From: Rhizobium sp. CB3090
GTDB taxonomy: Bacteria; Pseudomonadota; Alphaproteobacteria; Rhizobiales; Rhizobiaceae
Length of the DNA: 64,000 bases
Direction of reading: 5' to 3'
Assembly: GCF_029714285.1 (NCBI RefSeq)
Contig: NZ_CP121662.1
Coordinates: forward strand, 124,001 to 188,000
The notes beneath the pieces are model-generated. The model saw only the letters and a program-made list of their open reading frames with translations, made no database searches and had not been told where the DNA came from. Positions 10,397-14,117 of this stretch are shown here, piece after piece (positions within the stretch are counted from its first letter, which is position 1; each line of letters opens with the position of its first letter). A program made the position numbers and the translations under genes.

Positions 10397-11926
10397 CAGA
10401 CTGCTGACAAACCCCTGGCGATGCTGGGGATTTTGTGATTCATTGGGATATGTTGAAGAAACCCGCTGCCGAACAGACGGCGATCGAGATGGTGACGCTC
10501 GATAGCCTGGTGCCGAAGGATCACCTGCTTCGCAAGATCGATCAGGTGATCGATTTTTCCTTCATCCATGATCGTGTTGCCGGACTTTACTGCGCCGACA
10601 ACGGCCGGCCGGCGCTCGATCCGACCTTGATGTTCAAGGCGCTGTTTATCGGCTATCTGTTCGGCATCCGCTCGGAGCGTCAGTTGGTGCGCGAGATCGA
10701 GGTCAACGTCGCCTATCGCTGGTTCCTGCGGCTGAGGCTGACGGACGGAGTGTTCGACGCCTCGACCTTGTCGCAGAACCGCCGCCGGCGCTTCAACGAT
10801 CCCTGCGTAGCCCAGGATATCTTCGATCATATCGTCGAACAGGCGATCGCCCACAAGCTGGTCGACGGCACGGTGCTTTATACCGACTCGACGCATCTGA
10901 AGGCCAATGCCAACAAGGGCAAATACGATCTTGCCATGATCGAAAAGTCGCGTGCCGACTATTGGGCCGATCTCGACCGGGCCATTGAGGCCGAGCGTGT
11001 CGTGCACGGCCAGAAGCCGTTGAAGGAGAAGGAGCGCGAGCCGCAGGTCAAGGAGACCAAGGTCAGCCGCACCGATCCGGAGGCGGGCTATATGGTGCGC
11101 GACGGCAAGCCCAAGGGCTTCTTCTATCTCGACCACCGCACGGTGGACGGCAAGCTTGCCATCATCACCGACACCCATGTCACACCGGCCAACGTGCATG
11201 ACTCGATCGTCTATCTCGATCGGCTGGACCGGCAGCGCCGCCGCTTCGGCTTCGACGTCGGTGCCGTCGGACTGGATGCCGGCTATGCCACGGCCGGTAT
11301 CGCCAAGGGGCTGGAAGACCGGCAGATCCTCGGCGTCACCGGCTATCGCAATCCGACGCCGCCCAAGGCCGGCATGATGCGCAAGTCGAAGTTCGTCCAT
11401 GACATGCAAGCCGATGGTTATCGCTGCCCCGAGGGTCAGCTCTTGACCTATGCCACCACCGACCGCAACGGCTACAAGCACTACACATCCGATCCGGCCA
11501 TCTGCCAAACCTGTCCGCTGCTGGCCTCCTGCACATCCAACGCCAAAGCGGTCCGCTCCATCACCCGCCATGTCTGGCAAGATGCTCGTGAACGCACCGA
11601 TGCCCACCGTCTCACCCCCTGGGGAAGGGCTATCTACAAGCGCCGCAAGGAGACGGTCGAACGCTCCTTTGCCGATGCCAAGCAACTGCACGGGCACCGC
11701 TATGCCCGCTTCCGAAGTCTCACCCGCGTCGCCTGCCAGTGCCTGCTGGCGGCAGCAGCGCAGAACATCAAGAAGATCGCCATGGCGCTCACCAAAGCAC
11801 CCAAACCGAGCCTGGCGTGAGGGCCAGAGGCCGCCAACTTCCCCTCGCCGCACAGCCCAACTTAAAACAACCCATGGTCATAAAACAAAACCCGCCGAAA
11901 ATATCGACGGGTTTGTCAGCAGTCTG
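10397..11926 (+). mobile_element. Insertion sequence, IS1182-type, 1530 bp
   Basis: Bounded by perfect 18-bp terminal inverted repeats: CAGACTGCTGACAAACCC at 10397-10414 and its reverse complement at 11909-11926. Immediately outside both ends is the same 20-bp sequence AACGGGCCTTTCGGCCCGTT (10377-10396 and 11927-11946), which I read as the target-site duplication. It carries one intact transposase gene. Perfect repeats and an open transposase frame suggest a recent insertion that may still be active. Family assignment rests on the transposase type. Confidence 0.9.
10435..11820 (+). CDS. IS1182-family transposase (DDE type)
   Basis: 461 residues. The N-terminal DUF772-type region (LDPTLMFKALFIGYLFGIRSE) is typical of IS1182/IS5-group transposases, followed by a DDE nuclease core. 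Probable catalytic residues are D151 (YTDSTHL), D281 (GLDAGYA) and E409 (ETVERSF). A zinc-finger-like cysteine set (ICQTCPLLASC) lies near 360. The GTG start at 10435 is preceded by GGGGAT; an alternative ATG is at 10450. The frame is intact, so the element may be mobile on its own. Confidence 0.92.
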   Translation: MIHWDMLKKPAAEQTAIEMVTLDSLVPKDHLLRKIDQVIDFSFIHDRVAGLYCADNGRPALDPTLMFKALFIGYLFGIRSERQLVREIEVNVAYRWFLRLRLTDGVFDASTLSQNRRRRFNDPCVAQDIFDHIVEQAIAHKLVDGTVLYTDSTHLKANANKGKYDLAMIEKSRADYWADLDRAIEAERVVHGQKPLKEKEREPQVKETKVSRTDPEAGYMVRDGKPKGFFYLDHRTVDGKLAIITDTHVTPANVHDSIVYLDRLDRQRRRFGFDVGAVGLDAGYATAGIAKGLEDRQILGVTGYRNPTPPKAGMMRKSKFVHDMQADGYRCPEGQLLTYATTDRNGYKHYTSDPAICQTCPLLASCTSNAKAVRSITRHVWQDARERTDAHRLTPWGRAIYKRRKETVERSFADAKQLHGHRYARFRSLTRVACQCLLAAAAQNIKKIAMALTKAPKPSLA

Positions 11927-11967: not shown

Positions 11968-12492
11968 TCAGTGTGCCGCCCGGCGCCGGTCATGCACCGG
12001 CTGGTAAGCCAGGCGCTGATGATAGGTGCAATAGGGCGAAGAGTCCGGGCTGTCGTTGCCGCAGAAGTGAAAATCATCCTTCAGCGGGTCGCCGACCGGC
12101 CACTTGCAGGTGCGTTCGGTGAGCTCCGTCAGGCCGAGGCGGCGCGAGATCGGAACGACCACATTGGCGGCCGGGCGATATTCGATCTCGTGGACCGTAT
12201 CGATCTCGACCTCTTCCTTGAGCATCGTCGCACCCTGCTGGCGGGTAACCGTGCGGGTTGCAACGCGCGAGGCGTAGTTCGGCGCCCGCGGGGCCGAGGT
12301 ATTGCGTTTCGGGGCTCGAGCTGCAGTTGCCACGCCACCGGCTTTCGCTCGGCCCGGCAGGCTCAAGCGATGCACTTTGCCGATGACGGCATTACGACTG
12401 ACACCACCGAGCTGTGCCGCGATCTGGCTGGCGCTCAAACCTTCGGACCACAGCTTTTTCAGCTTCTCGACGCGTTCGTCTGTCCAATTCAT
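11968..12492 (-). CDS. gcrA: Cell cycle regulator GcrA
   Basis: Master cell-cycle regulator of alphaproteobacteria that binds the housekeeping sigma factor and stimulates promoters bearing methylated GANTC sites. 174 residues. The N-terminal DNA-binding part is diagnostic: MNWTDERVEKLKKLW, followed by GLSASQIAAQLGG and the SRNAVIGKVHRL helix-turn-helix. After a basic, low-complexity linker (~50-105), the C-terminal sigma-interacting domain has the conserved CKWPVGDP and FHFCG segments and a C-terminal CTYH. Its upstream region has a CtrA-type box and a dense GANTC cluster, described separately. Confidence 0.95.
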   Translation of the reverse strand: MNWTDERVEKLKKLWSEGLSASQIAAQLGGVSRNAVIGKVHRLSLPGRAKAGGVATAARAPKRNTSAPRAPNYASRVATRTVTRQQGATMLKEEVEIDTVHEIEYRPAANVVVPISRRLGLTELTERTCKWPVGDPLKDDFHFCGNDSPDSSPYCTYHQRLAYQPVHDRRRAAH

Positions 12493-12607
12493 GCCCTGTC
12501 TCCGCTGTCGCGTTTCCGATGGCAGAATCCCTCACCATTGCCTCGCATTGGATCGAGGCGTGAAACGCTTTAAAATTGTGGTGACTAGTTCCGCCGCATG
12601 CAGTCTA

Positions 12608-12624
12608 GTAATTGGTTTTTAACC
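12608..12624 (+). promoter_or_regulatory. CtrA-type box upstream of gcrA
   Basis: GTAA, seven bases, then TTAACC. It matches the CtrA consensus TTAA-N7-TTAAC with one mismatch in the first half. It lies 116-132 bp upstream of the gcrA start codon. CtrA represses gcrA in Caulobacter; the same here is inferred. Confidence 0.5.
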
Positions 12625-12636
12625 TAGTGTGAGGCT

Positions 12637-12673
12637 GACTCCGTGACAAGAGTCGCGGGAATCTTGAGGAATC
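12637..12673. promoter_or_regulatory. Cluster of four CcrM methylation sites (GANTC)
   Basis: GACTC at 12637, GAGTC at 12650, GAATC at 12659 and GAATC at 12669 fall in 37 bp; a fifth (GAATC) is at 12525. A GANTC site is expected a few hundred bases apart by chance. The cluster is between gcrA and argD, next to the CtrA-type box. Confidence 0.8.
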
Positions 12674-12825
12674 GATTTCGAGGTTTTCCCCAACTTGCTA
12701 TACGTGAGTGGCATTTATGCAATATCAGTTGTGGAAGACATGCCCTCCATCCAGAGGCGCTCTGCCGCACCTGCTAAATCGCCAGTTTTGTTGACATCGC
12801 GGTGCAAAACATCAATAGTGCCCAC

Positions 12826-12853
12826 GCCGCCGCAAGGCGGCATTTTTGATTTT
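12826..12853 (+). terminator. Orphan intrinsic terminator before argD
   Basis: GCCGCC-GCAA-GGCGGC forms a perfect 6-bp GC stem with a tetraloop, followed by ATTTTTGATTTT. It points the same way as argD, 65 bp before its start, yet no + strand gene ends upstream. It may end a short RNA or act as an attenuator in the argD leader. Confidence 0.7.
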
Positions 12854-12917
12854 CCAGGGCCCGTTTCACGTGAAGGGAACGATTGGCCCTAAAGGTTGTG
12901 ATCGAGGAGAATGCGCC

Positions 12918-14117
12918 ATGGCTGAAACCGCGCCGCTTTATGACACCTATATGCGTGCTCCGCTGCGGTTCGAGCGAGGCGAGGGCGTATGGCTGATCAC
13001 CGAGACCGGCGAGCGCTATCTCGATTTCGCCGCGGGTGTCGCGGTGAATTCGCTTGGCCATGCCCATCCCCATCTGGTTGCAGAGCTGAAATCGCAGGCC
13101 GACAAGGTCTGGCACCTGTCCAATCTCTATGAGGTGCCGGGCCAGGAGAAATTGTCGAAGCGCCTGACGGATGCCACTTTCGCCGACAAGGTGTTCTTCA
13201 CAAACTCCGGAGCCGAGGCACTGGAATGCGCCATCAAGACGGCGCGTCGCTACCAGTTCTCCAAGGGGCATCCCGAGAAATATCATATCATCACCTTCGA
13301 AGGCGCCTTCCATGGCCGCACGATCGCGACGATCGCTGCCGGCGGCCAGGATAAATATCTCGAAGGTTTCGGCCCGAAGGCCCCCGGCTTCGACCAAGTG
13401 CCGTTCGGCGATCTCGATGCGGTGCGCGCCGCCATCACCGATGCGACGGCCGCGATCCTGATCGAGCCGGTGCAGGGCGAGGGCGGTATCCGCCCGGCGA
13501 CCAACGAGTTCCTGCGCGGCCTGCGTCAGATCTGTGACGAGCATGGCCTGCTTCTGGTCCTCGACGAGGTTCAGAGCGGCGTCGGCCGCACCGGCAAGCT
13601 CTTCGCCCATGAATGGGCCGGCATTACGCCGGATATCATGGCTGTCGCCAAGGGTATTGGCGGCGGCTTTCCGCTCGGTGCCTGCCTTGCGACCGCGGAT
13701 GCGGCCTCCGGCATGAAGGCGGGCACACATGGCTCGACCTATGGTGGCAATCCGCTCGCCATGGCGGTCGGCAACGCTGTGCTCGATGTCGTGCTGGCAG
13801 ACGGTTTCCTGCAGCATGTGCGCGATGTGGCCTTGGTCTTCCGCCAGGGTCTGGCCTCGCTCAAGGATCGTTTTCCGGATATTATCGAAGACGTCCGCGG
13901 CGAGGGGCTGCTGCTCGGGATGAAGGCCGCCATTCCCCAGGCTGAACTGCTGCAGGCGATCCGCGCCGAGCATCTGCTGGGCGTGCCGGCGGGAGACAAT
14001 GTCATCCGTCTGCTGCCGCCGCTGGTGGTCACGGCCGAAGAGGCGCGCGAAGGCCTTGCCCGTATCGAACGCGCTGCAGAATCTCTGCGCGCCGCCCGCG
14101 TCAAGAAGTCGGCTTGA
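12918..14117 (+). CDS. argD: Acetylornithine aminotransferase ArgD
   Basis: PLP enzyme of arginine synthesis that converts N-acetylglutamate semialdehyde to N-acetylornithine. 399 residues from the ATG at 12918, with GAGGAG ten bases before it; an upstream extension of the frame lacks family sequence. The class III aminotransferase hallmarks are present: [15 protein letters not shown] for cofactor phosphate, [21 protein letters not shown] with the ring-nitrogen Asp, and Schiff-base Lys245 in AVAKGIGGG. It is followed by argF after a long hairpin, suggesting one arginine transcript. Confidence 0.95.

Follow-up and report, generated by a model that had tools for sequence, protein, structure and literature searches.

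A methylation switch on the gcrA promoter is already published for A. tumefaciens, a close relative of the strain analyzed here, and is thus known in kind. In A. tumefaciens, CcrM represses gcrA, and depletion of CcrM raises gcrA (PMC11514494, 2024). Active CcrM lowers the activity of a lacZ fusion to the gcrA promoter, in A. tumefaciens as well as in E. coli, and the 250-bp gcrA promoter region contains six GANTC sites (PMC11514494). The same report proposes that hemimethylation after fork passage activates the gcrA promoter and suggests that methylation may limit the recruitment of a sigma factor or of an activator; the gcrA start could not be predicted there (PMC11514494). In Caulobacter, ctrA P1 and other promoters have a GANTC site between the -35 and the -10 (PMC4287350, PMC8116508).

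The gcrA gene of S. meliloti is described from a different angle. Its start has been placed at -122 from the ATG (PMC4414408), and a strong CtrA motif lies over this start on the opposite strand, with a weaker TAA-N7-TTACT on the gcrA strand (PMC3616915, 2013). Moreover, S. meliloti gcrA is repressed by EcpR1 (PMC4414408, 2015) and by NtrX (PMC9223101).

The gcrA locus and its CcrM sites

The window, a stretch of 64,000 nucleotides from Rhizobium sp. CB3090, occupies positions 124001-188000 of a contig of 3,911,316 bases, one of the four that make up the 6.49 Mb genome. The GcrA it encodes shares 98% identity with GcrA of R. leucaenae USDA 9039 and R. mayense CCGE526. It scores 156 bits against the NCBIfam GcrA model, under the cut-off of 280, and a CcrM-like protein (N6_N4_Mtase + RAMA) encoded near 0.52 Mb of the same contig has CcrM as its best NCBIfam model at 627 bits, under the cut-off of 830; both cut-offs were set for Caulobacter-type equivalogs, and both proteins score lower. 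DnaA boxes adjoin a hemE-type gene near 3.467 Mb of the contig, which suggests a replication origin there. Provided that the contig is circular, this origin would lie ~0.58 Mb from gcrA; the A. tumefaciens gene is 0.43 Mb from its origin (PMC11514494). A transposase gene (DDE_Tnp_1_6, DUF772) is found at 10435-11820, between phoB and the 3' end of gcrA.

The minus-strand gcrA starts at 12492 and the ATG of the divergent argD is at 12918-12920, leaving a gap of 425 bp (12493-12917). This arrangement is constant, with argD divergent and upstream of gcrA in 80/80 named loci. The features of the locus are as follows.

11971..12492, minus strand: gcrA coding region, 174 aa without the stop (Pfam PF07750, 209 bits, cut-off 26.9)
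12525..12529, minus strand: fifth GANTC site, GATTC on the gcrA strand, in the gcrA leader at about +86 to +90
12590..12599, minus strand: ATGCGGCGGA, candidate EcpR1 target, able to pair with 10 bases of the EcpR1 loop as published, UCCGCCGCAUCU
12608..12624, plus strand: CtrA-type box GTAA-N7-TTAACC, overlapping the predicted -10 and start
12614, minus strand: predicted gcrA start, -122 from the ATG, set 7 bases past the -10, plus or minus a few bases
12621..12626, minus strand: predicted -10, TAGGTT
12637..12641, minus strand: GANTC site 4, GAGTC on the gcrA strand, in the spacer at about -27 to -23
12644..12649, minus strand: predicted -35, TTGTCA, 17 bp from the -10
12650..12654, minus strand: GANTC site 3, GACTC on the gcrA strand, abutting the -35 at about -40 to -36
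12659..12663, minus strand: GANTC site 2, GATTC on the gcrA strand, at about -49 to -45; in the four-site array, 52/81 named sequences
12669..12673, minus strand: GANTC site 1, GATTC on the gcrA strand, at about -59 to -55; also in three-site arrays, 15/81 named sequences
12684..12696, minus strand: block AAGTTGGGGAAAA, invariant in 52 aligned Rhizobiaceae-type sequences
12918..14117, plus strand: argD, divergent neighbour, NCBIfam argD family (NF002325, 672 bits)

The five GANTC sites and the CtrA-type box that the first-pass annotation had reported in this gap are all present where it placed them. On the plus strand, the sites read GAATC at 12525, GACTC at 12637, GAGTC at 12650, GAATC at 12659 and GAATC at 12669, and they are the only GANTC of the gap. 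Read on the gcrA strand, the upstream region is GATTC-N5-GATTC-N4-GACTC-TTGTCA-CG-GAGTC-N10-TAGGTT, and the GANTC cluster is, as predicted from sequence, the gcrA core promoter. Two sites fall within 40 bp of the predicted start (about -40 to -36 and -27 to -23), and sites 2 and 1 follow farther upstream, spaced by 9 and then 10 bp, each step close to one turn of the helix. The predicted start equals the published S. meliloti start of -122, a match that hinges on setting the start 7 bases past the -10; four Ensifer loci give -123 to -125, and S. meliloti itself is absent from the loci compared.

The window holds 69 GANTC sites versus ~349 expected from a first-order Markov model or ~136 from a third-order model. 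In first-order simulations of the gap, which was taken one base too long, four sites within 37 bp arise in 2 of 20,000 runs, and five or more anywhere in the gap in 3.3%. The genome sample consists of the window and 55 other stretches (1,159,000 bases, 17.9% of the genome) and has a GANTC density of 1.57/kb, set beside five sites in the 250 bp upstream of gcrA. Ranked within these 1.159 Mb, the four sites in 37 bp upstream of gcrA form the densest cluster, in keeping with the dense group singled out at first pass, and the sample contains no second stretch with four in 37 bp. Nine other sampled site positions have three in 37 bp (one of them inside the gcrA cluster) or five per 150 bp. The same concentration is found in the 80 named relatives, where the 300 bp upstream of gcrA have 398 GANTC in 24 kb (16.6/kb) and the remainder of the loci 656 in 650 kb (1.0/kb). 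Every place with four GANTC in 40 bp in these 80 loci is upstream of gcrA (51/51).

A second cluster in the window has three GANTC in 32 bp at 2641-2672, just upstream of phoR. It was considered as a similar switch and rejected, as all three sites are kept in only 4/20 loci, its own included. Its conserved core holds CTGTCAT, which we take to resemble a Pho box. The core of the gcrA promoter recurs elsewhere in the genome as one exact 18-mer and three copies at 3 mismatches, none of which has both CcrM sites.

Conservation of the promoter geometry

The named set is composed of 81 sequences, the window and the best 80 of 586 loci. Aligned within the Rhizobiales, the cluster is conserved, as a regulatory role of the kind proposed by the first-pass annotation would predict. 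The spacing of 10/9/13 bp is found in 46/81 sequences, window included; near variants of the four-site array account for 6/81, three sites (18 or 19, then 13) for 15/81 and the 13-bp pair alone for 9/81. The remaining 5/81 lack the 13-bp pair (Martelella L044, Falsochrobactrum L054, Pseudochrobactrum L063, Bartonella L074 and L080), and the spacer GAGTC is still present in L054, L074 and L080. A. larrymoorei (L042) has six GANTC in 250 bp, with the array as in the window. GACTC directly precedes the -35 in 76/81 and the spacer GAGTC is in register in 78/81, around a -35 that reads TTGTCA in 71/81, TTGCCA in 9/81 and TTGACC in 1/81.

The letters between the sites are less constant. Among the 46 arrays, the mean share of the commonest base is 0.45 between sites 1 and 2, 0.57 between sites 2 and 3, and reaches 0.97 in the -35 and -10. 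These arrays were chosen by GANTC, which fixes the GA and TC letters and leaves the middle base free; that base is T in 44 and A in 2 at sites 1 and 2, and C/G in 46/46 at sites 3/4.

A wider set covers the order. A GcrA match was found in 118/121 genomes, and the analysis covers the upstream regions of all 118; the three without a match were left out. Two of the genomes kept are of lower quality for this purpose, L295 being short and G273 matching weakly. Promoters were located with TTG-N20-GTAG alone, to avoid choosing them by GANTC. This pattern is found in 65/118 genomes from 35 families, with 2.9 expected from shuffles. GANTC stands at the spacer offset in 46/65 of these promoters (26 families) and abuts the -35 in 29/65 (15 families), and all 29 have both sites; any other offset has GANTC in at most 6 of 65, and 19/65 have neither flanking site. 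A relaxed promoter pattern, matched in 50 genomes, leaves the picture unchanged (spacer GANTC in 33, abutting GANTC in 19).

Counts that do not depend on the -10 point the same way. GANTC sites exactly 13 bp apart occur in 44/118 genomes and 20/52 families; other distances from 7 to 80 bp occur in a mean of 3.4 genomes and a maximum of 10, and a distance of 6 in 13 genomes, owing to a site near the start codon. TTG-N5-GANTC is present in 61/118 genomes (30 families), the next offset in 17, and it is missing in 57/118. The middle base of the spacer site varies across the order (GAGTC, GATTC, GACTC, GAATC), and therefore the CcrM site is what is kept. In three genomes of one family that read GACTC-N8-GACTC, the symmetry of the pair is lost and both CcrM sites are kept. 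We take this to mean that selection acts on the methylation site at the gcrA promoter. The -35-flanking geometry and its conservation across the order are undescribed in the literature searched.

Two further regularities of the order genomes lie outside the -35 region. The gcrA -10 region (L164-L192, L228-L314) has an unusual common ATATTGTAGYTT at 18-bp spacing, and the GTAG columns are 82-95% conserved in 61 order promoters. GANTC is also concentrated at a second place, 31-50 bases ahead of the gcrA start codon, where the gcrA strand mostly reads GGAKTC. In this leader region, GANTC is found in 36/118 genomes at -40 to -31 and in 26/118 at -50 to -41, and in 1-14 of 118 in other bins between -140 and -1. 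Among the named sequences, 71/81 carry GANTC between -28 and -45 relative to the ATG.

Conservation across the whole class was rejected. Outside the order, TTG-N5-GANTC is found in only 2/28 loci examined, which were drawn from the 30 best of 83 matching genomes and include some uncertain starts and one locus with only 48 bp upstream (L115). One of these two, L113, has a gcrA promoter with TTG-N5-GAGTC and GTAG at 18-bp spacing. This promoter is of like kind, and the element may therefore predate the order.

Other regulators and competing readings

The CtrA-type box is one mismatch from TTAA-N7-TTAA. It keeps its register in 38/81 named sequences if 1 mismatch is allowed and in 49/81 if 2 are allowed; 32/81 have more than 2. 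Across the order, it is in register in 10/61 promoters from 6 families, with the next offset at 3. This distribution suggests a real but often lost element, and CtrA control of gcrA is possible. Both CtrA motifs of the S. meliloti gcrA start also stand in the window, and no report of CtrA binding at that start was found in the literature searched.

EcpR1 is a candidate for the leader. By itself, the EcpR1-complementary 10-mer is no rarity (the window has 3 copies versus 0.75 expected), and GCGGCGG is found in the leader of 68/81 named sequences. The genome has its own ecpR1 (Rfam RF02500 at L085:1482-1591, 106.6 bits, cut-off 60), which maps near 991.5 kb of contig 1 and is flanked by a GGEEF gene and a gene for an L33-like ribosomal protein. 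Further upstream, the block AAGTTGGGGAAAA lies 70-80 bases before the predicted gcrA start. On the plus strand it holds TCCCCA at 12687, which is the W-box consensus of Caulobacter DnaA. The gap has only two sites within 2 mismatches of TTATCCACA, one of which is the W-box-like TTTTCCCCA in this conserved block; the block is possibly a DnaA site or part of the argD promoter. The NtrX motif CAAN2-5TTG is not found in the gcrA-argD gap.

Several readings compete with a methylation-sensitive gcrA promoter. That chance or intergenic composition makes the cluster has practically no probability left: GANTC is in general more frequent in intergenic DNA (PMC8116508, citing others), but the cluster is unique in the 1.159 Mb sample, its spacing is fixed in 46/81 named sequences, and 13-bp pairs occur in 44/118 order genomes versus 0.54 in block shuffles. 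Conservation, simulations, genome sample and shuffles together rule it out. CtrA could instead be the main regulator, acting through the box over the -10 and start, with the GANTC sites mattering little. The box is one mismatch from the consensus, a strong motif is known at this position in S. meliloti (PMC3616915), and the element recurs in register in 38/81 named sequences (at most 1 mismatch) and 10/61 order promoters. However, the box has more than 2 mismatches in 32/81 sequences, where the GANTC pair mostly remains. Moreover, no CtrA control of gcrA was predicted in Rhizobiales by PMC2877005, and the main text of the S. meliloti CtrA ChIP-seq study (PMC4433202) does not name gcrA as a CtrA target, mentioning it only in a Caulobacter legend and a reference; a leading role for CtrA is unlikely. 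It is very unlikely that the inverted repeat GACTC-N8-GAGTC is the operator of a dimeric regulator and its GANTC form incidental. The two sites are reverse complements and invariant in the 46 arrays (chosen by GANTC, middle base free), but other families lose the symmetry and keep both CcrM sites, as GACTC-N8-GACTC (3 genomes, f178) or GACTC-N8-GATTC (many).

The remaining readings concern the gene served and the protein that reads the sites. The first-pass annotation had suggested that argD might be switched by methylation as well, and argD is indeed the divergent neighbour in 80/80 named loci. This suggestion finds no support: the GANTC sites stay in register with the -35 of gcrA, more than 240 bp away from the ATG of argD, and argD has 0 occurrences in the main text of the A. 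tumefaciens report (PMC11514494). That the cluster serves argD, or both genes, is highly improbable. A doubtful reading, with a real chance of being right, is that GcrA, a sigma-70 cofactor preferring methylated GANTC, autoregulates its gene via the spacer site, the direct effect on polymerase being minor. The spacer site is where the Caulobacter promoters that peak in S phase have GANTC, between the -35 and the -10 (PMC4287350). On the gcrA strand, 55/61 order promoters have G or T in the middle of this site, as in the extended motif YGAKTCK, and S. meliloti GcrA binds methylated DNA better (PMC3667746). Against this, YGAKTCK, the GcrA motif quoted in PMC8725594 and PMC7987155, has no match on either strand of the 425-bp gap, and the base after the spacer site is A in 37/61 order promoters, not G or T. 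Work on Brevundimonas did not find the extended motif to be important (PMC7987155), and its absence from the gap therefore weighs little. The effect in A. tumefaciens is repression, and occurs in E. coli also (PMC11514494). GcrA autoregulation and a methylation-sensitive promoter switch can coexist.

A probable methylation switch and its known relatives

The gcrA core promoter on the minus strand probably works as a methylation-sensitive switch. This is likely because the orthologous A. tumefaciens promoter is less active when methylated by CcrM, and by analogy we infer that the A. tumefaciens switch would hold in the species of the window. To our knowledge, E. coli has no GcrA. Repression by methylation is seen there also, and GcrA is therefore not needed for it. 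The first-pass annotation had proposed a replication-linked methylation switch on gcrA, with GcrA itself cited as working at methylated GANTC promoters. The switch stands as likely, with repression as its published direction and with an action that works without GcrA.

In the proposed sequence of events, CcrM would methylate adenines on both sides of the -35, at one GANTC that abuts it and one in the spacer. In Rhizobium and its near kin, two more methylated sites would stand about one and two helical turns upstream, at positions that the RNA polymerase alpha subunit would contact. Full methylation would lower promoter activity, most likely by hindering the docking of sigma-70 polymerase. Passage of the fork would then leave the sites hemimethylated, and gcrA transcription would rise until, late in the cycle, CcrM acts. 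CtrA may contribute further repression through the CtrA-type box that covers the -10 and start, and EcpR1 would act post-transcriptionally on the gcrA leader. Which of the sites matter, the docking step, the timing by hemimethylation and the CtrA step are the parts that we infer.

A broader reading is put forward tentatively. The gcrA promoter could be an old, order-wide fork sensor, in which the CcrM sites flanking the -35 gate sigma docking without a methyl-reading protein. If this is true, fork passage itself would trigger a burst of GcrA, which then reads methylation elsewhere, and a reader of the methylome would be made from a promoter that reads methylation by itself. The anatomy names two -35-flanking sites, common to many families, that could hinder sigma recruitment, and in Rhizobium and near kin the two upstream sites are further candidates. 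The conservation points to a coupling of fork and GcrA that arose early in this order.

Among the described systems, the S. meliloti gcrA promoter shares with the window the start at -122, predicted in the window, the CtrA motifs on both strands and the EcpR1 target about 13-15 nt after the start; the available text of the S. meliloti reports (PMC3616915, PMC4414408) does not discuss GANTC sites. Caulobacter ctrA P1 is similar in being a cell-cycle promoter with a CcrM site in its core that is tied to hemimethylation after the fork. However, ctrA P1 is activated through GcrA, whereas the A. tumefaciens gcrA promoter is repressed by full methylation and does not need GcrA. Unlike ctrA P1, the gcrA promoter has several sites that bracket the -35. 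A. tumefaciens PG is an orthologous promoter from the same order and has a GANTC cluster, with six sites in 250 bp there and five here. It differs in that the available text of PMC11514494 does not place the sites on promoter elements, whereas the predicted anatomy and its conservation are given here. The window promoter is very probably the A. tumefaciens PG switch in kind.
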